From: Myxococcales bacterium
Lineage (GTDB): Bacteria > Myxococcota_A > Polyangia > Polyangiales > Polyangiaceae
Assembly: GCA_012514535.1 (NCBI GenBank)
Contig: JAAZAA010000246.1
Coordinates: 1 to 35,073 of the forward strand
Length of the DNA: 35,073 nucleotides
Direction: 5' to 3'
Both the position numbers and the translations under genes were made by a program. The notes beneath the pieces are model-generated. The model was not told where the DNA came from, made no database searches, and worked only from the letters and a program-made list of their open reading frames with translations. Every line of letters begins with the position of its first letter. Positions within the stretch are counted from its first letter, which is position 1. Below are positions 3,989 through 32,459 of the stretch, in pieces.

Positions 3989-4020
3989 GTTCAGGCTGCG
4001 CTGCGTTCAGGCTGCGCTGC
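3989..4020. repeat. Perfect tandem duplication of 16 bp spanning a stop codon
   Basis: GTTCAGGCTGCGCTGC occurs at 3989-4004 and again, identical, at 4005-4020. Degenerate copies continue leftward to about 3962. The TGA of the minus-strand gene at 4007-4315 lies inside the array (4007-4009). Confidence 0.8.
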
Positions 4021-4315: not shown

Positions 4316-4491
4316 CTCGGTTCTCGTGAGGAAGCGATGGGTGCGCCGCGCTCGGCCGCGCGGAGGACGTGTCCACCGGCGGTGAGTCGCGGGCGAAGGA
4401 GGGCGACACCCATGTTCCGATACACCATGACACCGGCCGCGCGGGCCCGCCACGCGCACACCTCGTGCGTGGGTAGGTAGAGACGGACAGG

Positions 4492-8381: not shown

Positions 8382-8550
8382 GTGTGCGCCAAAGCTTGAC
8401 CCGGACCCGCGCGGAGGGAAAGAGGGGAGCGGGGGGCGCATCTCCGCCGGGGCGCCAGCGTCGCCTCCTCGAGGGGGGCCCGTTCAGGGCGCGCCTGCGC
8501 CGGGTCCGGCGCCGCCTGGGCGGGGGCGGAGCCGTGGACGGGCGGGGATC

Positions 8551-9880: not shown

Positions 9881-9971
9881 GCGCTCAGCCTTTGGCGCCG
9901 GTGACGTTCAGCGTTTGGGCGTCGGTGGCGCTCAGCCTTTGGCGCCCTGGCGCTCAGCGTTTGCGTCGGAG
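9881..9971. repeat. Four imperfect tandem copies of a 22-24-bp unit spanning a stop codon
   Basis: The units start at 9881, 9904, 9928 and 9950. Each contains the core TCAGC(C/G)TTTG flanked by GCGC or GCGTC. The copies alternate between two subtypes (GCCTTTGGCGCC and GCGTTTGGGCGTC). The TGA of the minus-strand gene 9954-10259 lies in the fourth copy at 9954-9956; the other three are intergenic, upstream of the Dus gene. Confidence 0.8.
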
Positions 9972-10259
9972 GATGCCCGGGAGCACTGCCCTGACCGCCT
10001 CCCGCGCGAGGGCAGGGGTGCGCAGCAACCCCTTGGCGAGCTCGCTGGCGAGGGCCATCGGCGTCGAGGCGTCCGCGCGGAGGGCCACACGCTCGCCGCT
10101 CTGGAGATCCTCGATGGCGCCCCGCGCGACGGTCCGGGAGCCGTCCGAGCGGATCTCCACGACCATGCGTGCCACGACGGGCGGCAGGTCATCGTCGGCG
10201 AGGGCGGTCGTGGGCTCGCGAGTCAGGAGGAACCGGCGAGGCCTGTCGGCGTTGGACAC
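9954..10259 (-). CDS. Small hypothetical protein
   Basis: The protein is 101 residues from GTG 10259. An N-terminal part (ADRPRRFLLTREPTTAL) leads into VVARMVVEIRSDGSRTVARGAIEDL, which looks like two paired beta-strands. The sequence ends with a helical, basic tail (LASELAKGLLRTPALAREAV, then PGILRRKR). No family is recognised. Two GTG starts are possible (10277 and 10259). The inner one has a TATCCC hexamer six bases upstream, matching the leaderless pattern seen elsewhere in the window. The gene lies 49 bp downstream of the pseudopilin-like gene on the same strand. Its stop codon lies in the four-copy tandem repeat. Confidence 0.5.
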   Translation of the reverse strand: MSNADRPRRFLLTREPTTALADDDLPPVVARMVVEIRSDGSRTVARGAIEDLQSGERVALRADASTPMALASELAKGLLRTPALAREAVRAVLPGILRRKR

Positions 10260-10308
10260 TGGCCAGGGATAGCACACGCCGGGAGGTGCCGAGGCCCCTC
10301 AGAGGCCC

Positions 10309-14033: not shown

Positions 14034-14441
14034 GTGCAGCGAATTCTGGTCGTAGAAGACTCGTTCAGCATGCGGGCGTTCGTGCGCGCGGCTCTGGAGG
14101 ACCCCGCCGCGGGGTTGGGCCCCGTCGACGTCGTGGAGGCGGCGACGGGCTTCGACGCCCTGCGCCTGCTCCCGCGGGGGCCCTACCAGCTGGTGATCAG
14201 CGACATCAACATGCCTCACATCAACGGGCTGGAGCTGGTGCGCTTCATTCGGCAGAGTGACCAGCACCGCGAGACGCGGGTGCTCCTCATCTCGACCCAG
14301 GCCTCGGAGCGGGACCGCGAACGGGGGCTCTCCCTCGGCGCCGACGGTTACCTCCCCAAGCCCTTCACGCCCGAGGAGCTGTGGAGCGCGGTGGGGCAGC
14401 ATTTGCCGTCGGACGCGCCCGCCCAGAGGCGCGATGGTTGA
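14034..14441 (+). CDS. cheY: CheY-like single-domain response regulator
   Basis: The 135-residue protein is a complete receiver domain with no output domain. It shows the acidic pocket E8/D9, the phospho-acceptor D57 in VISDINMPHINGLEL, the S87/T88 switch residue in LLISTQAS and the conserved K109 in LPKPFTPEELW. GTG 14034 is chosen because AGAGGA lies about eight bases upstream and the receiver fold begins directly after it (QRILVVEDS). It is the first gene of a seven-gene chemosensory operon and overlaps the cheA start by eight bases. It is presumably phosphorylated by that CheA. The lack of a DNA-binding or enzymatic domain means the output partner is not evident. Confidence 0.9.
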   Translation: MQRILVVEDSFSMRAFVRAALEDPAAGLGPVDVVEAATGFDALRLLPRGPYQLVISDINMPHINGLELVRFIRQSDQHRETRVLLISTQASERDRERGLSLGADGYLPKPFTPEELWSAVGQHLPSDAPAQRRDG

Positions 14442-16521
14442 GATGACCGACAAGGCGCGCGAGGAGTTCTTCTCCGAGGCGCAGGAGATCGTCGAGGCCT
14501 TCTCTCGCAATCTCCTGTCGCTGGACGCGTCTCAGCGGAAGGGCCACCCGGATCCGGAGCTCATCAACGAAGCGTTTCGTGCCGTCCACACGCTCAAGGG
14601 GTTGGCTGGGCTGTTCGGGGCGACGCGCCTCGGATCGCTGTCCCACCGCCTCGAGGACCTGCTGGACGCGCTCAGACTCGGGCGCGTGGAGCTCACGCTC
14701 GACGTACTCGACGTGCTCTTCACCTCGGTGACGGTGTTCACGCGCCTGCTCGAGGCGGAGCAGGCGGGGGAGGTGGAGCCACCGGCGGCCCTGCGCGACC
14801 TGCTCGAGGCCATCCAGGCGATCTCCTCGGAGCAGAAGAAGCGCGGCGGACTCGCGGCCACCTACGACCTGGACCCCGGGATGTTGGCGGTGCTCACGGA
14901 GTACGAGGAGCACCGGCTCCGGGTCAACATCGAGAACAACGTCAACCTCTATCGTCTCCGTGTGCGCTTCGAGTTGTCGAGCATCGACAAGGAGCTCGAG
15001 AGCACGAAGGACAAGGCCCGGGAGTTCGGTGAGATCATCACCTATCTCCCCACCGGGGAAGCGAGCAGCGCCGACTCCATCGAGCTCGATCTCCTGATGG
15101 CTTCCCCCGCCGACTATGCGACGGTCGCGGCTGCCCTGGCGGGGGACAACGCCATCCTCGAGGAGATCCCCCGGCGGCAGGTCGGCGGCGCGAGCGCCTC
15201 GGAGGGTGGGGAGGGGGACGAGCTCGCCGTGTCCGAGGACGGCCTCGAGGCGGATCGACTCGACGAGGACGGGCAGAACATCGAGCGCACGGGCAGCCTC
15301 CGCTCGATCACGCAGACGGTGCGGGTGGACATCCGCAAGCTGGACCACCTGATGAACGTTGTCGGTGAGCTCTCGATCGTCGGCAACACGTTGGCGCAGC
15401 TCAGCGAACGCGTGCGCGCCGAGGGCAGTCGGCAGGTGGCCATGGAACTCCATCGCCTCCAGCGCAACTACGCCCGACGCCTGACGGAGATCCAGGACGG
15501 CATCCTGGAGATGCGCATGGTGCCGCTGGGCCAGGTCTTCGAGCGCTTGGCGCGGGCGGTTCGGCAGATGAGCCGAGAGCTGGGCAAGGAGATCCGGCTC
15601 GTGATCACGGGCGCCGAGACGGAGATCGACAAGCTCATCGTCGAGGAGCTGAGCGATCCGCTCATGCACATGATCCGCAACGCCATCGACCACGGCATCG
15701 AGCCCGTGGAGGAGCGCGAGGCCGTCGGCAAGCCCGCGGCCGGCACGATCGCCCTGAACGCCTACCAGAAGGGCAACCACGTGATGCTCGAGGTGGAGGA
15801 CGACGGGCGCGGCATCGACGAGGCCGCCCTGATCCGGCGGGCGGTGTCCTTCGGGGCGGTGGACAAGGGGGCGGCGGCCGAGCTGACTCGGGAGGAGATC
15901 CTCAGTCTGGTGTTCTTGCCCGGGGTGAGCACGCGGCAGGAGGTCGGCGATCTTTCGGGGCGCGGCGTGGGCATGGACGTCGTGAAGACGAACATCGCCA
16001 AGCTCGGTGGCGTCATCGACCTGCACAGCGAGGCGGGGATCGGCACCAAGGTGACGATCACGCTCCCGATCACGCTGGCCATCGTGCGCTCGCTGCTCGT
16101 GCAGTGCGGCCCCCAGGTGTTCGCCGTGCCACTGTCCACGGTCTCCGAGGCGCTGACCTTCGACGGCACGGGCACCCGCCAGGTCGAGGGACGCGAGGTG
16201 ATGACGCTGCGCGGCAGCACGTTGCCCCTGTGCCGGCTCGCCGATCTGCTCATGATCCCCGAATACCCGAGACCCGCGCGAGAGTTCGTCGTGGTCACCA
16301 CCATGGGCGACCGCCGCCTCGGGCTCATCGTCGACTACCTGGTGGGCCAGCAGGACATCGTCATCAAGCCCCTGGGTGCTTCCTTGGGCTCGGTGCGCGG
16401 CTTCGCCGGGGCCTCGGAGCTCGGCGATCAGCGCGTGGGCCTGGTGCTCGACACGGCGGCCATCATCGAGGAGGTGTTGACGCCCACCGAGATGCGACGA
16501 CACGAGGTGCGCCATGGCTGA
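14434..16521 (+). CDS. cheA: Chemotaxis-type histidine kinase CheA
   Basis: The 695-residue protein has CheA domains in order. The N-terminal HPt domain carries phospho-accepting H52 in AVHTLKGLAG. A region at about 145-265 starting LTEYEEHRLR takes the place of the usual P2 response-regulator-binding domain. An acidic linker is followed by the dimerisation helices (RKLDHLMNVVGELSIVGNTL), then the ATP-binding domain with N box MIRNAIDHGIE, DDGRGID and GRGVGMDVVKTNI, and a C-terminal CheW-like domain. It autophosphorylates and passes phosphate to CheY and CheB. There is no fused receiver domain, unlike FrzE. The start ATG 14434 overlaps the end of cheY; ATG 14443 is an alternative. It overlaps the first cheW by eight bases, indicating translational coupling. 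Confidence 0.93.
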   Translation: MVEMTDKAREEFFSEAQEIVEAFSRNLLSLDASQRKGHPDPELINEAFRAVHTLKGLAGLFGATRLGSLSHRLEDLLDALRLGRVELTLDVLDVLFTSVTVFTRLLEAEQAGEVEPPAALRDLLEAIQAISSEQKKRGGLAATYDLDPGMLAVLTEYEEHRLRVNIENNVNLYRLRVRFELSSIDKELESTKDKAREFGEIITYLPTGEASSADSIELDLLMASPADYATVAAALAGDNAILEEIPRRQVGGASASEGGEGDELAVSEDGLEADRLDEDGQNIERTGSLRSITQTVRVDIRKLDHLMNVVGELSIVGNTLAQLSERVRAEGSRQVAMELHRLQRNYARRLTEIQDGILEMRMVPLGQVFERLARAVRQMSRELGKEIRLVITGAETEIDKLIVEELSDPLMHMIRNAIDHGIEPVEEREAVGKPAAGTIALNAYQKGNHVMLEVEDDGRGIDEAALIRRAVSFGAVDKGAAAELTREEILSLVFLPGVSTRQEVGDLSGRGVGMDVVKTNIAKLGGVIDLHSEAGIGTKVTITLPITLAIVRSLLVQCGPQVFAVPLSTVSEALTFDGTGTRQVEGREVMTLRGSTLPLCRLADLLMIPEYPRPAREFVVVTTMGDRRLGLIVDYLVGQQDIVIKPLGASLGSVRGFAGASELGDQRVGLVLDTAAIIEEVLTPTEMRRHEVRHG

Positions 16522-17005
16522 TCTGGCGCGGGCGATGTCGCGGAGCGCCATTCGGCGCGGCGCGGACGGTCCGGTGCAGGAGTTCCTGGCGTTCACCCTG
16601 GCGGGGGAGCTCTATGGGGTCTCCCTCAACAAGGTGCGTCAGATCGTGACGCCGCCGCCCATCACCTACGTGCCACGAGCGCCGCGGGACGTGCTCGGGA
16701 TCTGTAGCGTGCGCGGGTTGCTCACCACGGTGGTGGATCTGCGACTGCGGCTGCGGGTGGCGGATTCGCCCCTCACGAAGAGAGCACGTATCCTGCTCAC
16801 TCAGGTGGACGACGGCGAGATGATCGGACTGCTGGTGGACGAGGTGCGTCACGTGCTGCGGCTCAGCGACTCCCAGATCGAGGTCGCGAGCCACGCCCTG
16901 GGCGGCGAGCTCTCCGAGCACGTGCGGGGCATCGCGCGCCCCGGGGGGCGTGAGATCATGGTGCTCTTGGATCTGTCGACCATCGTGGCGAGCGAGCACA
17001 GGTGA
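16514..17005 (+). CDS. cheW: CheW-like coupling protein (first copy)
   Basis: This is a 163-residue single CheW domain preceded by a roughly 20-residue N-terminal extension. Recognisable segments are FLAFTLAGELYGVSLNKVRQIV, ITYVPRAPRDVLGICSVRG, TTVVDLRLRL and GLLVDEVRHVLRL. The second Gly of the usual NLRG-type motif region is written SVRG. CheW links CheA to receptors, and here it presumably serves the CheA encoded just upstream. The ATG at 16514 has GAGGTG about four bases upstream and overlaps the end of cheA by eight bases. A second, different cheW follows 25 bp downstream. Confidence 0.9.
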   Translation: MADLARAMSRSAIRRGADGPVQEFLAFTLAGELYGVSLNKVRQIVTPPPITYVPRAPRDVLGICSVRGLLTTVVDLRLRLRVADSPLTKRARILLTQVDDGEMIGLLVDEVRHVLRLSDSQIEVASHALGGELSEHVRGIARPGGREIMVLLDLSTIVASEHR

Positions 17006-17030
17006 GCGGACGGGCATTCGAGGCAAGGTG

Positions 17031-17525
17031 ATGAGCAAGGGTCACGACATGCACGACGAGCGCGGCTTCGTGGGGTTCTCCCTCGGCGACGTGCACTACG
17101 CGGTGCCCATCGGGCGCGTGCGCGAGATCGTCAATCCGCTCCCGCTCACCGAGTTGCCGCACGCGCCCGCCGCCGTCGCGGGGGTCGCCGATCACCGGGG
17201 CGAGGTGGTGCCCGTCGTGGACCTGCGGGCGCGCTTCGGCCTGCCGCGCCAGGAGGATCAGCGCCGGACGAAGTGGGTCCTCGTGGATCTCCAGGGACGG
17301 ACGGTGGGCCTCCGCGTCGACAACGTGACGGAGGTCTTCGGGCAGGCCGGCGCGCCCCTGCGCCCCGCACCCGAGCTCGGCGCCGGCGACGACGTGCGCG
17401 GGCTCGCGGGCGTCATCACCCACGAAGGTCGCATGAAGTTCGTCCTCGATCTGGACCGCATCGAAACCCTGACGCGGGGGCTCCAGGAGCCGAACCTGCT
17501 GGGAGCGGCGGGAGGGGGAGCTTGA
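17031..17525 (+). CDS. cheW: CheW-like coupling protein (second copy)
   Basis: The protein is 164 residues from ATG 17031. It has a CheW domain with FVGFSLGDVHYAVPIGRVREIV, LTELPHAPAAVAGVADHRGE, VPVVDLRARFGLP, WVLVDLQGRTVGLRVDNVTEV and a final GRMKFVLDLDRIE. It is clearly diverged from the neighbouring CheW, so the two are not a recent duplication. Two CheWs in one system can bridge different receptors or CheA sites; which is true here is unknown. GTG at 17028 is an alternative start, and GAGG lies 8-9 bases upstream of the ATG. Its TGA overlaps the TTG start of the HEAT-repeat gene (TTGA). Confidence 0.88.
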   Translation: MSKGHDMHDERGFVGFSLGDVHYAVPIGRVREIVNPLPLTELPHAPAAVAGVADHRGEVVPVVDLRARFGLPRQEDQRRTKWVLVDLQGRTVGLRVDNVTEVFGQAGAPLRPAPELGAGDDVRGLAGVITHEGRMKFVLDLDRIETLTRGLQEPNLLGAAGGGA

Positions 17526-19666
17526 CCCTCACGGAGATCGCCCAAGCGCTCGGCTCGGAGGACCCGGAGGAGCGCCGCGTCGCTGCGGGCCGCCTGGTGG
17601 ACGCCGGTGCCGGCACCGTCCACCTGATTTTGCGCGCCCTGCGCGATCCGGACTGGCGCGTGCGGGAGGAGGCGCGGCAGGTGGCGCGTTTCCGTGCCCC
17701 CGATCCGGAGCTGTTGGCGGCGCTGATCGAGGCCATGTCCGCGCCCGAGGAGATGGGCGTGGAGAGCGTCGGGCTCCGCAACGCCGCGGTGGACGCGCTG
17801 GGCGCCTTCGGGGAAGCCGCCGTGGGGGCGCTCGCGCAGCGCATCCCGGATCTGGACGCCGACGGCCGCAAGCTGGCGGTGGAGGCCTTGGCGGCGACCG
17901 CGCACCCGAGCGCCCTGGCCGTCCTGCGCTCGATGCTCGACGACGAGGACGCCAACGTGCGGGCGGCGGCCCTCGAGGCGGTGGCGAACCTCGGCTCGGT
18001 CTCCGTCGACGAGGCCGTCGGTGTGCTCGAGGCATGCCTCGACGATCCCGATCAGTTCGTGCGGCTGATTGCCCTGAACGGGTTGAACCAGCTGGGCGCT
18101 TCTCTGCCCTGGAGCCGCATCGAGCCTTGCTTCCGGCACACGGTGCTGCGGCGCGCGGCCCTCGAGGCGGCGGGGCGCTCCGGCGCCCCCCAGGCGGCGG
18201 AGGTGCTCGCGGAGCAGCTGAGCGCCCAGCGGGGCTCGGGACCCGAGTTCGTCGCCACCCTGCGCGCGACGGCGAGCCTGGCTCAGCGCGGAGGGGAGGG
18301 GCGCGCCGCCCTCGCCGCGAAGCTGGCCCACCTGCCCGCGCTGGCCCGCAAGCGGCTCCTGGACCTCGCGGCCTCCGACGGCGAGGAGCTGGTCAACCGT
18401 CGCTGCGCGGTCTCCCTCTTGGGGCTGCTGGGAGGAGAAGATGCCGCCCGCGTCGCCGTGGCGGCCTTGGGGGACGATCGGGTGCTCGAGGAGGCCGAGG
18501 TGGCCGTCTGCGATCTGGGCGAGGCGGCGACGGCCGTGTTGGCACGTGCCGTCCAGGCCTCCGAGGGGAGCGAGCGCGCCGCGGCGGTGGAGCTCCTGGG
18601 GCGCGTGGCGGCGGACCTCGACGAGCGCGCCCGCGCCGAGGCGGTGCGGGTCATCCGGGGGAGCTTGCAGGACGAGTCCCTGGAGGTGGTCCGCGCAGCC
18701 CTCGACGTCCTCGGAGACATGGGTGACGCGAGCTGCCTGCACGCGGTGGGCGCCTTGCTGTCCGAAGGCACCGATCCGTTGGTGCACCGGCCCGGGGAGG
18801 GAGCGCTCGCGGCGTTGGCCCAGCGCTGGCCCCGCGAGGCCCTCGCGGTGATCGAGGCGCCGGGGACGGACCCGTACCCCGCTCTGGTGATGGTCAGCGC
18901 GTTGGGGCAGCTGGCCCGCGTCACCGAGGACGCGCCCCTGTCGGTCGAGCGCTGCGTGCCGCGCCTCTGCGGCGGTCTCAGCCACGCTCGGGCCGCGATC
19001 CGCCGCGTGGCCCTCGAGGGGCTCGCCGCTCTCGGCGATCACACCTGCGCGGAGGAGGTCGTCTTCGCCCTCACCGACGAGGAGCCCGAAGTGCGCACCG
19101 CTGCCGTGCAGGCGCTCGGACGGCTCCGCGCCCCGGACGGCACCGCCGTCGGCCTCGAGCAGCTGCTCGCGATCCTCGACAGCGGGCGTGACACGGAGCT
19201 CATGGCCATGGCCGCCGAAGCGCTGGGGGATCTCGGCCCGCCAGACATGCTGCAAGGTCTGGCGCCCTTGGCCCGCGGCTCCGATCCCCGGGTGGCGGTC
19301 GCCGCCGTGGAGGCCATCGCGCGCCTCCCGATGCCGCGGCGCCTGGAGGTGCTCCGCCCCGTGCTCGATCATCGAGACGCGGAGGTGGTCAAGGCCACCC
19401 TGCGGGCCCTCGGGGACGAGCGGGATCCGCGCGTGCTCGTGCAAGTGGGACGCTGCCTCGACCACGAATCCTGGGACGTGCGCCGCCAGGCGGCGGACAT
19501 GCTCGGCCGGCTGGGGGGAGAAGCCGAGGTGCAGCTCTTGCGGGCTCGCCTCGAGGCGGAGCAGGAGCCGCTGGTACGGGAAGCGCTGCAACGTGCTCTC
19601 GAGGAGCTCGGTGCGCTCAAGCGCACCCCGACCCACCCTCAGCCTGGGAGCCATCGAATTCGATGA
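17522..19666 (+). CDS. HEAT-repeat protein within chemosensory operon
   Basis: The protein is 714 residues and consists almost wholly of HEAT/PBS-lyase-type helical repeats. Repeat cores are DPEERRVAAGRLVDAG, DPDWRVREEARQVARF, DEDANVRAAALEAVANLG, DESLEVVRAALDVLGDMG, DEEPEVRTAAVQALGRL, HRDAEVVKATLRALGDE and SWDVRRQAADMLGRLGGE. No catalytic domain, signal peptide or membrane helix is seen, so it is probably a cytoplasmic protein-binding solenoid. The start is TTG at 17522: it overlaps the cheW stop as TTGA and has a strong GGGAGGGGGAG ribosome-binding site. The longer frame upstream only repeats shadow sequence. It overlaps cheR by four bases. Some myxobacterial Che operons (I recall Cpc7 in Myxococcus Che7) also carry a HEAT protein. 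Its role in this system is unknown. Confidence 0.85.
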   Translation: MTLTEIAQALGSEDPEERRVAAGRLVDAGAGTVHLILRALRDPDWRVREEARQVARFRAPDPELLAALIEAMSAPEEMGVESVGLRNAAVDALGAFGEAAVGALAQRIPDLDADGRKLAVEALAATAHPSALAVLRSMLDDEDANVRAAALEAVANLGSVSVDEAVGVLEACLDDPDQFVRLIALNGLNQLGASLPWSRIEPCFRHTVLRRAALEAAGRSGAPQAAEVLAEQLSAQRGSGPEFVATLRATASLAQRGGEGRAALAAKLAHLPALARKRLLDLAASDGEELVNRRCAVSLLGLLGGEDAARVAVAALGDDRVLEEAEVAVCDLGEAATAVLARAVQASEGSERAAAVELLGRVAADLDERARAEAVRVIRGSLQDESLEVVRAALDVLGDMGDASCLHAVGALLSEGTDPLVHRPGEGALAALAQRWPREALAVIEAPGTDPYPALVMVSALGQLARVTEDAPLSVERCVPRLCGGLSHARAAIRRVALEGLAALGDHTCAEEVVFALTDEEPEVRTAAVQALGRLRAPDGTAVGLEQLLAILDSGRDTELMAMAAEALGDLGPPDMLQGLAPLARGSDPRVAVAAVEAIARLPMPRRLEVLRPVLDHRDAEVVKATLRALGDERDPRVLVQVGRCLDHESWDVRRQAADMLGRLGGEAEVQLLRARLEAEQEPLVREALQRALEELGALKRTPTHPQPGSHRIR

Positions 19667-20556
19667 AGTTGGGGGGATTCGGGGCACGCTTTCGGCTGAT
19701 GCCCGAGGAGTTTCGTCTGCTGCGTGATCTCATCAACGAGCGGGCAGGGCTCCACTTCGGCGACGACTCGATGTTCGTGTTCGAGCGTCGCCTCGGAGAT
19801 CGAGCGTCCGCCCTGGGGCTCGACGGGTTCGCCGCCTACTACAAGCACCTGCGTTTCTCACCCCAGGGCGCCGAGGAACTCGAGCTCGCCCTCGAGGTGC
19901 TGACGACGAAGGAGACGTACTTCTTCCGCCAGGAGTACCAGCTCAGGTCGTTCCAGCAGGAGCTGCTGCCGCGGCTGGCGGAGGCCAACGCCTCGCAGCG
20001 TCGCCTCAACGTGTGGAGCGCCGGCTGCTCCACGGGTGAGGAGGTGTATACGCTGGCCATCCTCATCCTGGAGTCCGGGCTCTTCGAGGGCTGGGACGTC
20101 CACGTGATCGGGAGCGACCTGTGCCGCTCCAACGTGGCGGCGGGGCGTCGCGGCGTGTACCGCCCCAGCTCGTTTCGCACCACGACCCCGCTCATGCGAC
20201 AGCGGTACTTCGAGGAGCGCAGCGACGGCACCCACGTGGTCGAGCGCCTCAAGCGCTTCTGCCACTTCGGGCAGGTCAACCTCCTCGACGCGGAGCGAGC
20301 GCGGACCGTGGGGCGCGTCGACGTCGTGTTTTGTCGGAACGTGCTCATCTACTTCGACGAGCGCTCCCGCAGGAAGGTCATCGACACCCTCTACGATCGA
20401 CTGGTCCCCGGTGGCTACTTGCTCCTGGGTCATTCAGAATCCCTGCTGCACGTCTCCACGGCGTTCGAGCTGGTTCACCTCAAGGAAGATCTCGTGTACC
20501 GAAAGCCCGTCTCGCAGCCTCGCGGTAACAGCGCCCCCCAGCGAGGGCGTTCATGA
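19663..20556 (+). CDS. cheR: Chemoreceptor methyltransferase CheR
   Basis: The 297-residue protein has an N-terminal helical domain (residues about 12-80; EEFRLLRDLINERAGLHFG, VLTTKETYFFRQ) and a C-terminal SAM-binding domain with NVWSAGCSTGEEVYTLAIL, VIGSDLCRSNVAAGRRGVY, DVVFCRNVLIYFDE and LVPGGYLLLGHSESL. These are standard CheR motifs. It methylates glutamates on receptor cytoplasmic helices using S-adenosylmethionine. No receptor gene is in this window, so its substrate must be encoded elsewhere or be an unrecognised protein. The ATG overlaps the HEAT gene stop (ATGA) and its own stop overlaps the cheB start by four bases. Confidence 0.95.
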   Translation: MKLGGFGARFRLMPEEFRLLRDLINERAGLHFGDDSMFVFERRLGDRASALGLDGFAAYYKHLRFSPQGAEELELALEVLTTKETYFFRQEYQLRSFQQELLPRLAEANASQRRLNVWSAGCSTGEEVYTLAILILESGLFEGWDVHVIGSDLCRSNVAAGRRGVYRPSSFRTTTPLMRQRYFEERSDGTHVVERLKRFCHFGQVNLLDAERARTVGRVDVVFCRNVLIYFDERSRRKVIDTLYDRLVPGGYLLLGHSESLLHVSTAFELVHLKEDLVYRKPVSQPRGNSAPQRGRS

Positions 20557-21608
20557 CGTCGCCCGGGGCCCCCTCCGAGCTGCGCGTCCTGGTGGTGGAC
20601 GACTCGGCCTTCAACCGGCGGAGCATCAGCGACATGATCTCCGACTCGCCCGGCGTGCGCGTCGTGGGCAAGGCGGCGGACGGCGAAGAGGCGCTGCGGC
20701 TGGTGCACGTCATGGAGCCGGACGTGGTCACCCTCGATCTCGAGATGCCGAAGATGGACGGCTTCACCTTCCTGCGCATCCTCATGAGCCGGACGCCGAT
20801 GCCCGTCATCGTGGTGTCGAGCTACTCGCAGAAGGAGAACGTCTTCAAGGCGCTCGAGCTCGGTGCCCTCGACTTCGTCGCCAAGCCGGACACGATGACG
20901 ACCGACGTCACGGCCGTGCGCCAGGAGCTGCTCGCCAAGATCGGCCTGGCGCGCCAGATCCGCGCGCGGACCCGGCAGGTGGCGCGACCCGTCGTGGAGG
21001 CGACCTCGTCGGCGCGGCTCGTGGCCGACAAGGCGGGCGCTCCGAACCAGGTGGTGGTCATCGGCTCGTCGACGGGGGGCCCCAGCGCGCTGATGGAGAT
21101 CCTCAGCGCGTTGCCCAAGGAGTCCCGGGCGGCGGTGCTCATCGCTCAACACATGCCCGACAAGTTCACGCGGACCTTCGCCGAGCGCCTCGACAAGCGC
21201 TGTCAGGTGACCGTCCGCGAGGCCCAGAACGACGACCCCGTGCTCGCGGGGCACGTGTACCTCTGCCCGGGGCGGCACTGCATGGAGCTGACGCGGGTGG
21301 GGAGCGAGCTGCGGCTGCGTGTGGTGCAGCCCGGTCCGGAAGATCGCTACGTGCCGAGCGCCGATCGGCTCTTCCACAGCGCCGCCGACGTGCTCGCAGA
21401 CAAGGTGCTCGGCGTGGTCTTGACGGGCATGGGCGACGACGGCGCTCGGGGCACCGTGCAGGTCCATGGGCGCGGCGGGCGGGTCATCGCCGAGCACGAG
21501 TCGTCGGCGGTCGTGTACGGCATGCCCCGGGCGGCGGTGCGGACCGGATGTGTCGAGCGCAGCCTGACCATCCGCGGGATCGCCGATCTGTTGGCCACCC
21601 TCGGCTGA
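20553..21608 (+). CDS. cheB: Protein-glutamate methylesterase/response regulator CheB
   Basis: The 351-residue protein has an N-terminal receiver domain with acidic residues D16/D17, phospho-acceptor D62 in LDLEMPKMDGFTF and a lysine in FVAKPD. A linker and then a C-terminal methylesterase domain follow. The catalytic triad is S173 in GSSTGGPSAL, H200 in IAQHMP and D296 in TGMGDDGARG. When phosphorylated by CheA it removes receptor methyl groups, opposing CheR. It is the last gene of the operon and overlaps cheR by four bases (ATGA). No clear terminator directly follows; the downstream gap holds an 18-bp tandem repeat and a small hairpin. Confidence 0.95.
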   Translation: MTSPGAPSELRVLVVDDSAFNRRSISDMISDSPGVRVVGKAADGEEALRLVHVMEPDVVTLDLEMPKMDGFTFLRILMSRTPMPVIVVSSYSQKENVFKALELGALDFVAKPDTMTTDVTAVRQELLAKIGLARQIRARTRQVARPVVEATSSARLVADKAGAPNQVVVIGSSTGGPSALMEILSALPKESRAAVLIAQHMPDKFTRTFAERLDKRCQVTVREAQNDDPVLAGHVYLCPGRHCMELTRVGSELRLRVVQPGPEDRYVPSADRLFHSAADVLADKVLGVVLTGMGDDGARGTVQVHGRGGRVIAEHESSAVVYGMPRAAVRTGCVERSLTIRGIADLLATLG

Positions 21609-21685
21609 GCGCGGGCGTCGGCCCGGTGCTCGCGTCGGCTGGTGTTCGAGGTCCCCGTGCTGGGCCGGGTGCTCGCGGCGACCCG

Positions 21686-21721
21686 TGCCCGGGGGCGTGC
21701 CGGTGCCCGGGGGCGTGCTGG
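21686..21721. repeat. 18-bp tandem repeat in the cheB-htrA gap
   Basis: TGCCCGGGGGCGTGCCGG at 21686-21703 is followed by TGCCCGGGGGCGTGCTGG at 21704-21721 and a partial third copy beginning TGCCCCGG. It is intergenic, about 80-110 bp after the cheB stop. Confidence 0.75.
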
Positions 21722-21774
21722 TGCCCCGGTGCTCGCCGCGGAGGGGCGGTGGCCGTATCCTCGGGGCCCCTCCG

Positions 21775-21795
21775 GGTGTGATTTTTCATCGCACC
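21775..21795 (+). other. Hairpin with T-rich loop between cheB and htrA
   Basis: GGTGTGAT pairs with ATCGCACC (one G-T wobble) around the loop TTTTC. It is locally AT-rich in an otherwise GC-rich gap. There is no trailing T-run, so a classical terminator is doubtful. It lies about 60 bp upstream of the htrA ATG and could be an operator or a processing site. Confidence 0.35.
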
Positions 21796-21857
21796 GAGCC
21801 GGAATGAGCTGCCCCGGTGGACGGTTGGCACCGGGGACGTCACCCAGAGGACCACCG

Positions 21858-23296
<1,439 letters not shown>

Positions 23297-23306
<10 letters not shown>

Positions 23307-25515: not shown

Positions 25516-26904
25516 ATGGACCTGACCGCAGTGGTGATGGCCGCAGGCCACGGAACCCGCATGAAGAGCGCTCGACCCAAGGTGCTCCACGAAGCGGCGG
25601 GACGCCCCCTGGTGTACTACCCGATCCGCGCCGCCCTCGACGCGGGCGCGACGCGGGTCGTGGTCGTCGTGAACCCGAGCGTCCGCGAGGGGGTCGCCGA
25701 GGCGCTGCGACGTCACCTCCTCGACGTGCCCTTCGAGCTCGCCGTCCAGGAGACGCCGCGGGGCACCGGGGACGCGGCCCGGGTGGGGCTCGAGCAGGTC
25801 ACCTCCGACGCCGTGCTGATCCTGTCGGGGGACACCCCCGTGCTCACCGGCGCGGAGCTCGAGCCCCTCGTCGCGGCGCTGAAGCGTGGCGGGCTCCTGG
25901 CGTTCTCGACCTGCGAGCTCGAGGATCCCACGGGCTACGGCAGGGTGCTCCGCGGGGAGGACGGGCGCGTCCTCGAGATCCGCGAGCACCGCGATCTGAC
26001 GTCCGACGAGCAGCGCCGCGTGCGGGAGATCAACGGGGGAGTGTACGCGGGACGCAGCGCGGAGCTGCGGAGCGCGCTCGGTCGGCTCAGCCCGAACAAC
26101 GCCCAGGGGGAGTACTACCTCACGGACGTGGTCGCGCTGCTCGCCGAGCAAGGCGTCGTGGAGGGCGTGCCCTGCTCCGCGGCGGCCTTGGCGGGCGTGA
26201 ACGACCGCGCCCAGCTCCGGGCCGCGGAGGAGACGCTGTTCGAGCGCATCGCGCGGCGCTGGGGCAGCCTCGGCGTCACCGTCCGGGGGCGCCCGCTCAT
26301 CGACGACACGGTGGAGCTGGCCGAGGACGTCGTGATCGAGGACGGCGCGCGGCTCCGGGGGACGACCCGGATCGCCCGCGGAGCGTTCATCGACGTCGGC
26401 GCGGTGCTCACGGACGCCACCGTTGGACAGGACACGGTCGTGAAGCCGTACTCCGTGATCTCGGAGAGCGCCGTGGGGGCGGCCGCGCAGATCGGCCCCT
26501 TCGCGCACCTGAGGCCCGCGAGCGTCATCGAGGACGAGGCTCACATCGGCAACTTCGTCGAGACGAAGAAGACCCACGTCCGGCGCGGCGCGAAGGCCAA
26601 CCACCTCGCCTACCTCGGGGACGGCGACGTCGGCGAGGGCGCGAACGTGGGGGCCGGCACGATCTTCTGCAACTACGACGGCTTTCGGAAGCACCGCACC
26701 ACCATCGGTCCGGGCGCCTTCATCGGGAGCGACTCGCAGCTGATCGCCCCGGTGCGGATCGGGGCGGGCGCCTACGTGGCGACGGGGACGTCCGTCACGG
26801 AGGACGTGCCGGACGAGGGCTTCGCCATCGGCCGGTGCCGGCAGAGCACCAAGCCCGGCTACGCCCCCGCCCTGAAGGCGCGCCTCGGGCAAGGCAAGGG
26901 CTGA
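25516..26904 (+). CDS. glmU: Bifunctional GlmU: GlcNAc-1-P uridyltransferase / glucosamine-1-P acetyltransferase
   Basis: The 462-residue protein has both GlmU halves. The N-terminal nucleotidyltransferase carries VMAAGHGTRMKSARPKVLHE, QETPRGTGDAAR, ILSGDTPVLTG, GYGRVLR and EINGGVYAG. The C-terminal half is a left-handed beta-helix of hexapeptide repeats with IGPFAHLRPASVI, IGNFVETKKTHV, KANHLAYLGDGDVGEGANVG and GTIFCNYDGFRKHRT, the acetyltransferase active-site region. It makes UDP-GlcNAc, the precursor of peptidoglycan and lipid A. The ATG at 25516 has GAGGAA eight bases upstream. It probably shares a transcript with the transglycosylase gene 23 bp upstream. Its stop lies two bases from the stop of the convergent ketosynthase gene. 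Confidence 0.95.
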   Translation: MDLTAVVMAAGHGTRMKSARPKVLHEAAGRPLVYYPIRAALDAGATRVVVVVNPSVREGVAEALRRHLLDVPFELAVQETPRGTGDAARVGLEQVTSDAVLILSGDTPVLTGAELEPLVAALKRGGLLAFSTCELEDPTGYGRVLRGEDGRVLEIREHRDLTSDEQRRVREINGGVYAGRSAELRSALGRLSPNNAQGEYYLTDVVALLAEQGVVEGVPCSAAALAGVNDRAQLRAAEETLFERIARRWGSLGVTVRGRPLIDDTVELAEDVVIEDGARLRGTTRIARGAFIDVGAVLTDATVGQDTVVKPYSVISESAVGAAAQIGPFAHLRPASVIEDEAHIGNFVETKKTHVRRGAKANHLAYLGDGDVGEGANVGAGTIFCNYDGFRKHRTTIGPGAFIGSDSQLIAPVRIGAGAYVATGTSVTEDVPDEGFAIGRCRQSTKPGYAPALKARLGQGKG

Positions 26905-26906
26905 TC

Positions 26907-28919
26907 TCAGCGGGTGGACGCGTCGGTGGGCACGACGTGCACCGACCAGGCGTCGCCCACCGCGTAGCGCCCCTCCCGCCGCTCCACGAGGGCACGCAGC
27001 AGAGGGAACCCCTGGCTCGCGGGGGCCGCGGCCAGCCCGGGGACGCGATCGTCGAGCTCTTCCCGGGCGCGCCGCTCCTCTCCTCCGCCGAGGCCACCGG
27101 GTGCGTGTCGCTCGAACTTCTCGAGGCGCGCGAGGGCCGTCGCCGGAGGCTCCGGGGCGCGCTGGAGCAGGAGCGCCGCACCCGCCGCGGGGTAGGGGGG
27201 GCGCCGGGTCAGGCGGGTCGGGGCGTCCTCGTCCGCCACGAGCACGGCGACGCGGCCACCGTGAACGGAGAGCCAGGCCGTCGCCTCGAGCAAGCTCATG
27301 GCCCACGTGTCCACGCCCGCCGCCAGCGCCGTCGAGAAGGAGCGGTCGCCGAGGGCGATCGAGATCACCCCGGCGGCGGTGTTGTGCACGCTCGCCTGGA
27401 AGCCGGCGGGGGAGAGGGGTTCGCCCTGCGCCAGCTGATCGAGCAACGCCAGGGTGGTGGCCATCTCGCCCGAGGCCGAGCCACAGACGAGGGGCAGCTC
27501 CGGGCGCTCCGGGGGCGCGATTTGCTCGTACAGCTCCGCGAACACCCGGGTGAGCAGGCTGGCGCGCCCGCGGGCGCGCGCGGGCAGGAGCGCGGCGGGG
27601 GGGCGACGCAGCTCGGGATCGGCGGTGCCCGCGAGGAGCGCCCGAAGGTGCGGATAACCGGGCGTCCAGAACCCCACCGCCTCGACCCAGACGTGTCCGG
27701 GGACGATCCGGTCGCGCGCCGCGCTCTCGGCCTCGGGCGTCGCGACGCCCAGGGCCACGGCGACGTTGCTCCCCCCGAACGCGAAGGAGTTGCTCAGGGT
27801 CGTGCGCAGGGGAGCCGGGCGGCTGTCACTCACGGGGGGCGCGGCGAGCTCGGGATCGACGCGCGTGCCGGGGCGGTTGCCCGGGATCCGCTGAGCCGAC
27901 AGTGCCTCGAGGCAGAAGCCCGCCTCCGTCGCGCCGGCAGCGCCGAGCTGGTGTCCGACGCGGTCCTTCGTCGACGAGTAGGTGACCGCGGGCCCCAGCG
28001 TGGTCGCGAGGGCGAGGGCCTCGGCGGAGTCGTTTTGCCGCGTCCCCGTCCCGTGAGCGTTGACGTAGTCGACCTGCGCGGGCTCGAGCCCCGCCAGGCG
28101 CAGCGCGGCTTCCAGGGCGAGGCGGGCACCGAGCCCCTCAGGGTGAGGGGCGGTGGTGTGGAAGGCGTCGTTGCTCTCGCCAGCGGACAGGAGGCGGAGG
28201 GGGACCCGCGCCGCCCGATCGAGCAGGAGCAGGGCGCTGCCCTCACCGATGTTGATACCGTTGCGCGTGACGTCGAAGGGGCGACAGAGGTCGTCCGAGA
28301 GGATCCCGAGCCCGGAGAACCCCCGCAGGGTCATCTGGCACAGCGCATCGGCGCCGCCGGTGATCACCGCGTCGCACAGGTTCGCCTCGAGGAGCCGCTG
28401 CGCGGCCGCCATGGCCTTGCCGCTGGAGGAGCACGCGGTCGACACGACGTAGCCCGGCCCCGCGAAGCCCAACGCGCGGCGCGCCATCTGGAGCAGCGCG
28501 CCGAAGGGGTGCACCGCGTCGAAGTCGTAGTCGTCGGGGCGCGGCTCACCCCGGTGCTCGAGGGCGATCACCTGCTCGGTGACGTCGATGCCCCCCGTGG
28601 AGGAGCCAATCACGACGGCGACCCGCTCCGGTCCCCAGCGCGAGATGGCGCCGCGGATGTCGCCTTCCAGCGCGCGCAGGGACGCCCAGAGCAGCTGGCT
28701 GCAGCGGCTGCGGTGGCCCGCGACCTCCGGCGGCATCGGAGGCAAGGTCGTCGTGACCGGGCCCCAGTGGGTGGCGAAGGGCAGCTCGGCGGCGGGCCGC
28801 AGCCCCGTCCCCTCGAGCAGCCACGGGGAGGTGGCTTCGGGAGCTCGATAGGTGCGGGCCCCGAGAGCGTTGAGCCACGTGTAAGCGACGATGCCGTAGG
28901 AGTTCAGAGGCTGCTGCAT
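26907..28919 (-). CDS. Fused beta-ketoacyl-ACP synthase and chain-length-factor-like protein
   Basis: The 670-residue protein has two thiolase-fold modules. Residues about 1-400 form a FabF/FabB-type ketosynthase with the full Cys-His-His triad: C163 in STACSSSG, H289 in VNAHGTGT and H323 in STKDRVGHQLGAAG. SNSFAFGGSNVAVALG closes the module. Residues about 410-600 match the smaller ketosynthase-like/chain-length-factor family found in aryl-polyene clusters (my recollection of PF13723): VEAVGFWTP, LPLVCGSASGEM, ASVHNTAAGVISIALGD and FSTALAAGVDTWAMSLLEA, without the active-site Cys. The family members I know are separate proteins. No ACP, ketoreductase or dehydratase gene is adjacent. It probably elongates an acyl chain, and the product is unknown. 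GGGAAGAG lies about eight bases upstream of the ATG. Confidence 0.85.
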   Translation of the reverse strand: MQQPLNSYGIVAYTWLNALGARTYRAPEATSPWLLEGTGLRPAAELPFATHWGPVTTTLPPMPPEVAGHRSRCSQLLWASLRALEGDIRGAISRWGPERVAVVIGSSTGGIDVTEQVIALEHRGEPRPDDYDFDAVHPFGALLQMARRALGFAGPGYVVSTACSSSGKAMAAAQRLLEANLCDAVITGGADALCQMTLRGFSGLGILSDDLCRPFDVTRNGINIGEGSALLLLDRAARVPLRLLSAGESNDAFHTTAPHPEGLGARLALEAALRLAGLEPAQVDYVNAHGTGTRQNDSAEALALATTLGPAVTYSSTKDRVGHQLGAAGATEAGFCLEALSAQRIPGNRPGTRVDPELAAPPVSDSRPAPLRTTLSNSFAFGGSNVAVALGVATPEAESAARDRIVPGHVWVEAVGFWTPGYPHLRALLAGTADPELRRPPAALLPARARGRASLLTRVFAELYEQIAPPERPELPLVCGSASGEMATTLALLDQLAQGEPLSPAGFQASVHNTAAGVISIALGDRSFSTALAAGVDTWAMSLLEATAWLSVHGGRVAVLVADEDAPTRLTRRPPYPAAGAALLLQRAPEPPATALARLEKFERHAPGGLGGGEERRAREELDDRVPGLAAAPASQGFPLLRALVERREGRYAVGDAWSVHVVPTDASTR

Positions 28920-29267: not shown

Positions 29268-29945
29268 TCACTCGGCGGGGCTTCCCGCGGGGCTCGGCGG
29301 CACGACTTCCGGGAGAAGATGACGCATCCGCTCCCGCTTGACCGCCAAATAGTACGCCGAGTGCTCGTTGGCGGGGATGTGCACCGGGATGCGCTTCGCC
29401 ACCCGGATCCCCAGCTTCTCGAGGGCCTCGAACTTGTCCGGGTTGTTCGTCATCAGCTCCACCGAGCGGACGTCGAGGGACTGCAGCATGCGGGCAGCCA
29501 CGTCGTACTGACGCGCATCGACCGGCAGGTGGAGCAGCTCGTTCGCTTCGATGGTGTCCGCGCCGGCCGCCTGGAGGGCGTAGGCGCGGATCTTGTTGGC
29601 GAGCCCGATGCCGCGCCCTTCCTGGCGCAGATAGAGGATCACGCCGCGCCCCCGCTGAGCGACGTGTCGCTGCGCCGCCTCGAGCTGGTCCTTGCAGTCG
29701 CACTTGAGGGAACCCAAGACCTCGCTCGTGAGGCACTCCGAGTGCATGCGCACGGGCACGGGATCTCCGTCGGCCACGTCGCCCATCACCAGGGCCAGGT
29801 GTTCGTCGCTGAGGCCGGGATGCGCGGAGGGATCCCGATAACGAAACACGATCACCTGGAACGTGCCGAACTGCGTGGGGAGGGGTGCCTCTGCCAGACG
29901 CTCCAGAGGAGGGGCTGCGGGCTGGGTGGGGAGCGGGCCGTTCAT
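29268..29945 (-). CDS. ribA: GTP cyclohydrolase II
   Basis: The 225-residue protein is a single RibA domain and is not fused to RibB. The zinc site is HSECLTSEVLGSLKCDC (three cysteines), followed by the catalytic segment ILYLRQEGRGIGLANKIRAY and the substrate-contact region LMTNNPDKFEALEKLGIRV. It opens GTP to 2,5-diamino-6-ribosylamino-pyrimidinone phosphate, the first step of riboflavin synthesis. A short Pro-rich N-terminus precedes the domain. The start ATG at 29945 has no obvious Shine-Dalgarno sequence. A five-copy 16-bp repeat lies about 125 bp upstream. ribF lies 1.5 kb away on the other strand, but no ribB, ribD, ribE or ribH gene is in this window. Confidence 0.93.
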   Translation of the reverse strand: MNGPLPTQPAAPPLERLAEAPLPTQFGTFQVIVFRYRDPSAHPGLSDEHLALVMGDVADGDPVPVRMHSECLTSEVLGSLKCDCKDQLEAAQRHVAQRGRGVILYLRQEGRGIGLANKIRAYALQAAGADTIEANELLHLPVDARQYDVAARMLQSLDVRSVELMTNNPDKFEALEKLGIRVAKRIPVHIPANEHSAYYLAVKRERMRHLLPEVVPPSPAGSPAE

Positions 29946-30242: not shown

Positions 30243-31253
30243 TCAAGCCCCACTGCATAGATCGATGAGCCCTCGCTCCAGGATCGCCCGGGGAGGGACC
30301 TTCGAGCCTCCTTTGAGCGCGAGATCGAGCTCCGCCAGGCGCTCGAGCCACGTCTCCAGCACGGCGCGGGGCACCGCCCGCACCTGCTGCGCCAGCTCCC
30401 GGGCCTTGAACGGGGGCGCTCCGGCGGCCTGCGCGGCCCGTTGGGGGTCCGCCCCTTGGCGCATGGCCGACTCGAACTTCAGCAGCTGCCGAGTGGCCCA
30501 GGCGAGCACGCCGACCAGGCGCAACCCTCGGTCCTGCGGATCGAAGACCTCGTCCAGGGCGGCGAGGGCGCCCCCGACGTTGCGCGCTCCCACCGCCCCG
30601 ACCAGCTCCCACACCGTGGCGGAGCGCACACGAACCACGCACTCCGCGACGGCGGCCTCGGTGACCTCCGCGCCCTCACCGACGTAGAGGCAGACGCGCT
30701 CCAGGGCGTCCGCGAGGGGGCCCAGCTCGGGCCCGCTCAGCTCCGCCAGCAGATCCGCGACTGCGGGGGAGATCGTGTTGCCGCGCTCCTTCGCACGCTG
30801 CATCACCCAGCGGGGGAGCTCCTGACGCTTCGGGCTCTCACAGGTGACGAGCCACCCCTGCTTGCGCGCGAGGTTCACGAGGCGACGCCGCTTGTCCAGC
30901 TTGGGCCCGAGCAGCACGAGGACCGTGGAGGGGGCGGGATGGTCCGCGTACTCCGCGAGGCGATCGAGGGACTGCTTCTTCGCTTCCGAGTCCCAGCGCT
31001 CCAGGTTGCGTACGAGCACCCAGCGGCGGGGGGCCATCATGGGCAGCGTGCGCGCCGCCGAGAGCACTGCGTCCGCGTCCACGTCCCCGGCGTTGAGCTG
31101 GTCTTCGTTGAGCCCCGCCATGCCCCCTTCCATGGTGGCCTCTTTGAGCGCGCGCACGACCTGATCGGCGAGGTGACGTTCCTCGCCCACCAGCAGGTAC
31201 ACGGGGCGGAGTCGGCCCGCGCGGGCCTCGGCCAGAACGTCGTCCGGGCTCAT
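30243..31253 (-). CDS. holA: DNA polymerase III delta subunit
   Basis: The protein is 336 residues from ATG 31253. The N-terminal part (MSPDDVLAEARAGRLRPVYLLVGEERHLADQVVRAL) is the typical HolA opening, with the PVYLLVGEE strand-loop. It is followed by LNAGDVDADAVLSAARTLPMMAPRRWVLVRN, VLLGPKLDKRRRL and the C-terminal clamp-loader helical collar domain (TVWELVGAVGARN, LRLVGVLAWATRQLLK, PFKARELAQQVR). Delta opens the beta sliding clamp in the clamp-loader complex. The longer frame upstream to 32060 is shadow of ribF. TATAGA lies six bases upstream of the ATG with no Shine-Dalgarno sequence, so it may be leaderless. It is divergent from ribF. Confidence 0.9.
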   Translation of the reverse strand: MSPDDVLAEARAGRLRPVYLLVGEERHLADQVVRALKEATMEGGMAGLNEDQLNAGDVDADAVLSAARTLPMMAPRRWVLVRNLERWDSEAKKQSLDRLAEYADHPAPSTVLVLLGPKLDKRRRLVNLARKQGWLVTCESPKRQELPRWVMQRAKERGNTISPAVADLLAELSGPELGPLADALERVCLYVGEGAEVTEAAVAECVVRVRSATVWELVGAVGARNVGGALAALDEVFDPQDRGLRLVGVLAWATRQLLKFESAMRQGADPQRAAQAAGAPPFKARELAQQVRAVPRAVLETWLERLAELDLALKGGSKVPPRAILERGLIDLCSGA

Positions 31254-31259
31254 GGGGCT

Positions 31260-31289
31260 TCTATAGGCCCGGGGTGGGGCGTCGGCCAA
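31260..31289 (-). promoter_or_regulatory. Putative sigma-70-type leaderless promoter of holA
   Basis: On the minus strand TTGGCC (31289-31284) and TATAGA (31265-31260) are 18 bp apart, and six bases then lead to the ATG at 31253. The hexamers match four of six consensus positions each. Confidence 0.45.
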
Positions 31290-31433: not shown

Positions 31434-32459
31434 GTGACGGCCGAGGCCGATGAACCGGGCGGAGCGGCGCCGGCGCTCCCGCATCCCTGTGAGCCAGACC
31501 GCTACGTGGAAGGGGCGGAGCGCCTCCATTTCCCTGCGCGATCGACGCTGGTCGCCATCGGCAATTTCGACGGCGTGCACGCGGGGCATCGCGCGGTGCT
31601 GGGGCGAGCCTGCGAGGAGGCCCGCGCCCGCGGGCTCCGCCCCTGTGTCCTGACCTTTCACCCCCACCCGTCGGAGGTGCTCGGTCGGGGAGGGCTGCCG
31701 CGCCTGACGTCCCTCGAGCGCAAGGTGGAGCTCATCCTCGGGCTCGCGCCGGAGCTCCAGGTCGTCGTGCAGCCTTTCGATCGGCGGCTCGCCGCCTTCA
31801 GCCCCGAGACTTTCGTGCGCGAGCTGCTGGTGGGGCACCTGGGGGCGGCGCTCGTCCAGGTCGGCCACAACTTCCGCTTCGGGCACCGCCGAAGCGGCGA
31901 CCTGACCACCCTCCGTGACCTGGGCCAGGAGTACGGCTTCGAGGCCCGCGCCGAGCCCCTGTCCGGCGATGACGCAGGGAGCTACTCGAGCACGCGGGTG
32001 CGTCGCGCCGTCGCAGAGGGAGCGCTCGACGAGGCCGCGAGGATCCTCGGGCGTCCGCACATGCTGAGCGGCTGTGTGATCGAGGGCCAGCGCCGCGGCA
32101 GGACCCTGGGATTCCCGACGGCGAACCTCTCCGGCGTGGACGAAGCTCTACCGCCCGATGGCGTCTACGCGGTGTTGGTCGATTGGGAGCAGGAGCCATG
32201 CCGACCGCGGGCCCTCGGGTGCGGCGTGATGAACCTCGGGAAGCGCCCCACCTTCGACGCGGGCCGGAGCGCCGAGGTCTTCGTGCTCGATCGGGACGTC
32301 GATCTCTACGGCCAGAAGCTGCGGGTGCACCTGGTCGCCCGTCTCAGGGACGAGCGACGCTTTTCCGGGGTCGAGGCGCTCCGCCAGCAGATCCAGGAGG
32401 ACGTGCGGCAGGCACGGCAGCTCCTCCCGGCGGACGTGCCCGCGGGCCCCTGGTACTGA
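31434..32459 (+). CDS. ribF: Bifunctional riboflavin kinase / FAD synthetase
   Basis: The protein is 341 residues from GTG 31434. The N-terminal adenylyltransferase domain has VAIGNFDGVHAGHRAVL (the nucleotide-binding HxGH-like motif), LTFHPHPSEVL, VGHNFRFGHRRSGD and SSTRVRRAV. The C-terminal riboflavin kinase domain has GRTLGFPTANLSG and the GVMNLGKRPTFD segment. It phosphorylates riboflavin to FMN and adenylates it to FAD. About 30 residues precede the domain (VTAEADEPGGAAPALPHP). The in-frame extension to 30441 is shadow of holA. No Shine-Dalgarno sequence precedes the GTG, so the exact start is uncertain. A small GAGAG/CTCTC stem follows the stop. Confidence 0.9.
   Translation: MTAEADEPGGAAPALPHPCEPDRYVEGAERLHFPARSTLVAIGNFDGVHAGHRAVLGRACEEARARGLRPCVLTFHPHPSEVLGRGGLPRLTSLERKVELILGLAPELQVVVQPFDRRLAAFSPETFVRELLVGHLGAALVQVGHNFRFGHRRSGDLTTLRDLGQEYGFEARAEPLSGDDAGSYSSTRVRRAVAEGALDEAARILGRPHMLSGCVIEGQRRGRTLGFPTANLSGVDEALPPDGVYAVLVDWEQEPCRPRALGCGVMNLGKRPTFDAGRSAEVFVLDRDVDLYGQKLRVHLVARLRDERRFSGVEALRQQIQEDVRQARQLLPADVPAGPWY

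Follow-up and report, generated by a model that had tools for sequence, protein, structure and literature searches.

A single-chain ketosynthase and chain length factor of the aryl polyene type, encoded apart from its candidate partner genes in a Myxococcales bacterium

The window analysed here is a stretch of 35,073 nucleotides from a Myxococcales bacterium (contig JAAZAA010000246.1 of assembly GCA_012514535.1). Its minus strand carries a single open frame that joins a ketosynthase (KS) to a half-size chain length factor (CLF) domain. The gene and its neighbors are:

25516..26904, plus strand: glmU, convergent with the fusion gene and ending 2 bases before its stop codon
26907..28919, minus strand: KS-CLF fusion gene, 670 aa, ATG start, stop codon at 26907-26909
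29268..29945, minus strand: ribA (GTP cyclohydrolase II), upstream of the fusion gene and on the same strand
30243..31265, minus strand: holA (DNA polymerase III delta), same strand as the fusion gene, start approximate
31500..32459, plus strand: ribF (FAD synthetase/riboflavin kinase), start approximate

Family scans covered ribF and 23 of the 27 predicted genes of the window, the other four being short or marginal predictions (1-456, 4010-4459, 7710-8441, and 9957-10277). No ACP, KR-type reductase, dehydratase or thioesterase was seen among the genes scanned, in agreement with an earlier, sequence-only reading that had described the fusion gene as standing alone. Three of the scanned genes gave no family. 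The others include chemosensory, protease, ABC transporter and tRNA-modification genes, with no aryl polyene (APE) partner among them. The chemosensory run (14257-23303) consists of a CheA-like kinase, CheW, a HEAT-repeat protein, CheR, and CheB, followed by a trypsin/PDZ protease; the last three genes are collinear in a congener, G001. The fusion gene shares in this conservation: the order ribF, holA, fusion, glmU, mltD, trypsin/PDZ protease, cheB, cheR is kept in G001 at 44-58% identity, with ribA absent between holA and the fusion.

The domains over cut-off in the 670 residues are those of a KS and PF13723 only. The KS is recognized by PF00109 (residues 98-236, 78.1 bits) and PF02801 (residues 246-348, 88.3 bits). 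The sequence-only reading had staked its view of the C-terminal half on PF13723, and this family matches residues 437-590 at 97.6 bits (cut-off 25), rising to 101.1 bits when the C-terminal 267 residues are scanned alone. The features within the gene, all on the minus strand, are:

27735..28919: ketosynthase domain, residues 1-395, ApeO type (Pfam, sequence match, tree, and fold match)
28431..28433: codon of the nucleophile Cys163, in STACSSS (motif and alignment)
28053..28055: codon of His289, in NAHGT (motif and alignment)
27951..27953: codon of His323, in VGHQLGAAG (motif and alignment)
27699..27734: linker with approximate limits, near residues 396-407 (comparison of the junction with that of split relatives; residues 401-410 at pLDDT 57 as a block)
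26910..27698: half-size CLF domain, about residues 408-670, PF13723, ApeC type (Pfam, sequence and fold match)
27564..27578: basic stretch RARGR, residues 448-452, aligned beside Arg30/Arg31 of ApeC (putative functional role)
27369..27389: VHNTAAG motif of the CLF domain, residues 511-517 (motif and alignments)
27315..27335: STALAAG, residues 529-535, with Leu532 replacing the nucleophile Cys (alignments; placement against STACSSS by eye)

Both halves carry the residues that the earlier reading had assigned to them. In the KS half, STACSSS starts at 160, NAHGT at 287, and VGHQLGAAG at 321, and an alignment of the window's protein with six other fused ones shows no change at Cys163, His289, Lys318, or His323. 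In the CLF half, VHNTAAG starts at 511, GDR at 524, and STALAAG at 529; its only cysteine is Cys479, and the place of the nucleophile is held by Leu532. The best NCBIfam model listed, NF006618 (PRK09185, beta-ketoacyl-ACP synthase), gives 389.7 bits, under its curated cut-off of 407. Identity with FabF was rejected, since the FabF model TIGR03150 gives 211.7 bits against a cut-off of 493.75.

By sequence, the best matches of the whole protein are 6qsp_A (264.1 bits) and then 7f28_B (246.5 bits), and those of the CLF half are 6qsp_B (40.8 bits) and then 7f28_A (36.0 bits). These are chains of the ApeO-ApeC condensing enzymes of Xenorhabdus doucetiae (6QSP) and Acinetobacter baumannii (7F28). 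An AlphaFold2 model, of the kind that the earlier reading had proposed, has a mean pLDDT of 78.5 and a pTM of 0.82 for the two halves together. Its alignment of 31 rows held the window's protein, 10 of 11 fused proteins, and 20 of 45 KS references; L161 was dropped, as were eight CLF-only rows, because the aligner had placed them on the KS half. Confidence is lower in the CLF part of this model, where some segments fall below pLDDT 50. The top two Foldseek matches of the whole model are 6qsp_A and then 7f28_B; they also lead the VIA-align search, whose rows span residues 5-395 only. The CLF half was therefore folded separately, with 12 of 18 CLF references in the alignment, and reached a mean pLDDT of 87.6. 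Foldseek ranks 1-3 for this half are 6qsp_B, 7f28_A, and 7f28_C. By VIA-align, 6kxe_B (Z 21.0) and 6qsp_B (Z 20.2) are tied and many KS chains come close (Z about 19-20), so that the ApeC chains are clearly first by Foldseek only.

A different one-chain arrangement is seen in the PUFA synthase PfaC, whose KS-CLF didomain (6riw) stands at Foldseek rank 44 and covers the whole model (787 columns, rmsd 8.9); its TMq is 0.72, and the single KS chains listed have 0.49-0.55. PfaC has KS and CLF on one chain, as in the window, but the solved chain has 923 residues against 670. We take the 6RIW didomain to come from a larger PUFA synthase; PfaC carries further synthase domains on the same chain. Identity with PfaC was rejected, the window protein having no domain over cut-off beyond the KS and PF13723.

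The likeness to ApeO-ApeC extends to the architecture. As described for the Acinetobacter enzyme (PMC8358021), ApeO-ApeC also pairs an active KS with a half-size CLF, which has one thiolase fold and lacks a nucleophile; Arg30/Arg31 of ApeC are proposed there for ACP docking, and an increase near 460 nm is reported for polyene formation by ApeO-ApeC. ApeO and ApeC, however, are two chains forming a heterodimer, with their genes in one cluster, whereas the window has one chain, encoded apart from the candidate pathway genes. A KS is likewise paired with a half-size CLF-like protein in ORF16-ORF17 of Lysobacter enzymogenes, a system for xanthomonadin-like pigments. The report on them (PMC3691225) gives these as separate adjacent genes, in contrast to the one gene here; in every genome that it compares, the KS comes with a half-size CLF-like protein. 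Deletion of ORF16, which encodes the CLF-like protein, abolishes the pigment, and Gln166 is needed in the ORF16-ORF17 system, according to the same report. It is well supported that the fusion protein is a fused variant of the ApeO-ApeC condensing enzyme rather than a plain member, because KS and CLF share one chain.

A PF13723 match of at least 67 bits was found in 23 of 97 genomes, the window's included. By reading frame, seven of these have fused genes (the window's own genome, labelled G000, and G001, G002, G008, G041, G053, and G077) and 16 have split ones. The sequence-only reading had presented tethering as a departure from separate subunits and had called for a survey of fused against split forms. 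The two domains do share a chain here, and 16 of the 23 genomes are split, but the fusion is recurrent: it is found in relatives, in Bacteroidales, in a rumen deltaproteobacterial MAG, and in other genomes of the phylum, so its uniqueness was rejected. Tethering is a variant, not a new kind, and it has another form in Bacteroidales. A sample of 377 genomes of the phylum gave four whole-profile matches (G008, G000, G077, and G053), as expected by construction, the profile having been built from the seven fused proteins and all four genomes being rows of it. A further fusion from this sample, in G361 (PF13723 at 173.5 bits), is followed by LolA-like and MMPL-like genes, named from sequence. In a literature search that was thin on subscription journals, no publication on a fused APE KS-CLF was found; papers on a "KS-CLF didomain" are, by title, mainly about PUFA synthesis. 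In PMC10132072, KS and CLF matches are paired within 2 kb, overlapping ones included.

The KSs of the window, G001, and G008 form one clade with support 99/97 in a careful tree of 62 KS rows. These were kept from 93 rows, the 31 dropped beforehand being the long-branch L044, other paralogues, the fused proteins of Bacteroidales and L162, L161, L172, two Gastranaerophilales rows, the FabF and FabF-like KS of G000, and near-copies. On this tree the fused state needs six changes, at least four of them forced by well supported branches, a count in which gains and losses look the same. In a quick tree of all 93 rows the window again groups with G001 and G008 (98), and 11 changes are required, 7 of them forced. 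In both trees the window's KS lies inside the clade of KSs that are paired with a clear PF13723 CLF. The KS of the congener has a long branch (1.14 in the careful tree) and its CLF starts later in the profile; the two fusions are about 44% identical over 539 residues.

In Bacteroidales (L157 of Prevotella jejuni, and others) and in the rumen deltaproteobacterial MAG (L162), the fusions have the domain order of the window on one chain, but those of their KSs that were placed in the tree fall outside the clade holding the window's KS, and the four fusions scanned (L157, L158, L162, and L164) give weak PF13723 scores of 40-54 bits. With our own CLF profile, KS-CLF-like fusions were found in Bacteroidota as ORFs of about 590-800 aa at L157, L158, L163-L165, L170, L171, L175, and L212, and PF13723 was confirmed in all three of these scanned (L157, L158, and L164). 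Fused KS-PF13723 proteins of about 640-665 aa at L133, L134, and L135 (G327, G239, and G191; family f40 of the phylum) form their own clade (98) outside the APE clade. Also outside it is a separate fused KS type from five genomes of the family (L040, L041, L042, L043, and L136, in G055, G040, G011, G014, and G050, respectively); its large ORFs, of about 700-1100 aa, are neighbors or overlap, and they contain a KS and in several cases a second KS-like half as well. In G002, labelled as the same genus, the contig with the fused gene (L038, on C680) has 52% G+C against 71% in the window, and its KS sits on a long, separately placed branch; mis-binning or transfer of that contig is possible.

The split loci show how close the two genes usually stand. 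With thresholds of 340 bits or more for the KS and 60 bits or more for the CLF, 56 of 58 loci have a 4-nt overlap between the KS stop and an in-frame CLF start. Eight of the loci show a place already counted, so that the figure by place is 48 of 50; only L056 and L142 depart from the pattern, and the loci fetched favor close relatives. The overlap puts KS and CLF in different frames, and therefore loss of the stop codon is insufficient and fusion needs a change of frame. In the junction comparison, the window, L037, and L049 have linker-like extra residues between two conserved ends, which the split relatives lack. An overlap this close hints at selection for making the two proteins in pairs, and fusion would be the extreme case.

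PF13723 is matched once in the window's genome, by the fusion gene, and the search for APE genes elsewhere that the earlier reading had recommended found candidates on other contigs. On C160, genes for a dehydratase (DH), a KR, and a tryptophan-halogenase-like flavoenzyme lie side by side, the DH scoring 122 bits against a six-row profile of relatives' dehydratases. C151 holds an ACP gene, an AMP ligase gene, and the 5' part of an aromatic amino acid lyase gene. C60 holds the 3' part of the lyase gene, a LolA-like gene, and an MMPL gene, and it shares with C151 an overlap of exactly 127 bp that falls inside the lyase gene. The pathway genes inspected read without stops, the lyase being split between the ends of two contigs. 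The ends that were compared, a set that leaves aside the left end of C160, give no link from the window to C160, C151, or C60. Seven fetched loci, carrying fused genes or, in the case of G001, the lyase genes, served for comparison. Identity to them is 58-62% for the KR (four homologues), 61% for the ACP (best match), 53% for the halogenase-like flavoenzyme, 42% for the ligase, and 40% for the MMPL protein, but only 25-37% for the DH. In G001, ligase, lyase, and dehydratase-like genes lie together on another contig, C78. The fused genes of G008, G077, G041, G053, and G002 adjoin varying sets drawn from an ApeP-like dehydratase, KR, second KS, ACP, ligase, aromatic lyase, and MMPL or LolA. Judged from these sequences, the window's genome appears to encode an APE-like pathway for the most part, spread over three places in the assembly.

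Some expected members were not recognized. The model for ApeP-like dehydratases, PF22817, has no match in G000 or G001, and the six-row profile gave one match in each of six genomes tried, three of which (G001, G002, and G008) had supplied rows. The ApeP-like dehydratase at L130:10599-11060 is caught by no Pfam model at E 1e-4, PF22817 included, and that model seems too narrow for the dehydratase group concerned. For an ApeI-like dehydratase, there is no PF22818 match in G000; the E. coli control was also under the cut-off. An ApeR-type second KS was not recognized among the six PF02801 matches of G000 (442 contigs, 98.76% complete), which are the fusion gene, two in long frames (2,763 and 2,395 aa), FabF, a FabF-like paralogue, and a divergent KS beside a PPTase. 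A very divergent ketosynthase gene at L044:8045-10675 of this genome (C305) is directly followed by a 4'-phosphopantetheinyl transferase gene. The predicted genes at L092 and L093 (C38 and C170), of 2755 and 2325 aa with KS domains, are apparently type I PKS or hybrid synthases. Three 4HBT_2 thioesterases, on C133, C217, and C51, are not near C151, C60, C160, or C172, and their presence says little, the family being common.

We consider it highly probable that the gene encodes a single-chain, elongating KS of the APE type, with its CLF fused C-terminally, that serves a scattered pathway; the tethered enzyme of an unlinked pathway that the sequence-only reading had put forward thus gains the ApeO/ApeC matches and the APE-like partners on other contigs. 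In such an enzyme Cys163 would take the aryl-acyl chain from a dedicated ACP, and malonyl-ACP would be decarboxylated, and the Claisen condensation driven, with the help of His289 and His323. The CLF half, with neither a nucleophile nor a second thiolase half, would pack on the KS as a permanent pseudo-dimer partner, a pairing presumed intramolecular rather than domain-swapped, and may help to shape the acyl pocket and offer a basic surface for ACP docking. The KR and DH of C160 would reduce and dehydrate the beta-keto product, and with no enoyl reduction to follow, a conjugated polyene would build up on the ACP of C151. The aryl starter may be supplied by the aromatic lyase and AMP ligase of C151-C60, and the lipid may be exported via the LolA-like and MMPL proteins. 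Against a joint pathway, genes on three contig groups need not act together. Also counted against the single-chain APE enzyme are the unrecognized ApeR-type KS and ApeI-like DH, the failure of PF22817 to find the DH of G000, the NF006618 score under its cut-off, the lower confidence of the CLF part in the full model, though not when folded alone, and the siting of the 4HBT_2 thioesterases on other contigs.

An unlikely yet serious alternative keeps the mechanism and changes the product: the enzyme may belong to a related aryl-lipid or polyene pathway, for example one for a flexirubin-like or halogenated polyene, instead of classical APE. The aromatic amino acid lyase and the tryptophan-halogenase-like flavoenzyme among the scattered genes fit this, as do the ApeR-type KS and ApeI-like dehydratase unrecognized in G000, but genes of the first two kinds also stand beside KS-CLF genes in relatives (L049 and L066) and so do not discriminate. 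A further alternative, offered in the sequence-only reading, is use of the primary fatty-acid ACP with FAS enzymes, here as an extra elongation for membrane or unusual lipids. Nothing speaks for it beyond the lack of linkage, namely a position amid housekeeping genes that two species of the genus share and the missing ACP gene nearby. The low FabF score, the grouping of the KS with PF13723-paired KSs while the genome's own FabF lies elsewhere in the tree, and the APE-like ACP, KR, DH, and starter enzymes of the genome all make it very improbable.

That the gene is a decaying leftover of a broken-up APE cluster might be read from its isolation from the other genes, from the unrecognized ApeR-type KS, and from the congener copy, with its long branch and late-starting CLF. 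Decay nevertheless appears most improbable, with catalytic residues and both domains intact in both species despite their divergence, the position conserved, and the other pathway genes inspected free of stops. The fusion might also be a frameshift or assembly error joining two overlapping genes, the split genes overlapping in different frames so that an indel could join them. The fused clade, however, comprises three independent genomes (G000, G001, and G008), on which ground an artefact was rejected, and the linker-like stretch at the junction points the same way; we regard such an error as next to impossible.

In G008, of the same family and by tree the nearest fused relative outside the genus, the fusion gene sits inside a cluster with an ApeP-like dehydratase, a KR, a second KS, and an MMPL protein. 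Because of this, its isolation in the window looks like relocation out of a cluster within the genus, the simplest history. As a more tentative proposal, to which we give somewhat less than even chances, the genus would have a self-sufficient APE condensing enzyme: a covalent tether would have replaced the 4-nt coupling and would keep the 1:1 pairing outside the cluster, at a housekeeping locus behind holA and ribA, with the pathway drawn from scattered genes and possibly lacking an ApeR-type KS.

Aryl polyenes are yellow bacterial pigments, and the APE pathway is among the most widespread bacterial pigment pathways. The loci compared here suggest that translational coupling, in the form of the 4-nt overlap, gave way to covalent fusion on more than one occasion. 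With KS and CLF on a single chain, the stoichiometry and the pairing of the condensing enzyme would be fixed, and the way in which a half-size CLF sets chain length could be studied with a simple construct. If the proposal of a scattered pathway is true, such pathways could escape genome mining that is based on clusters.
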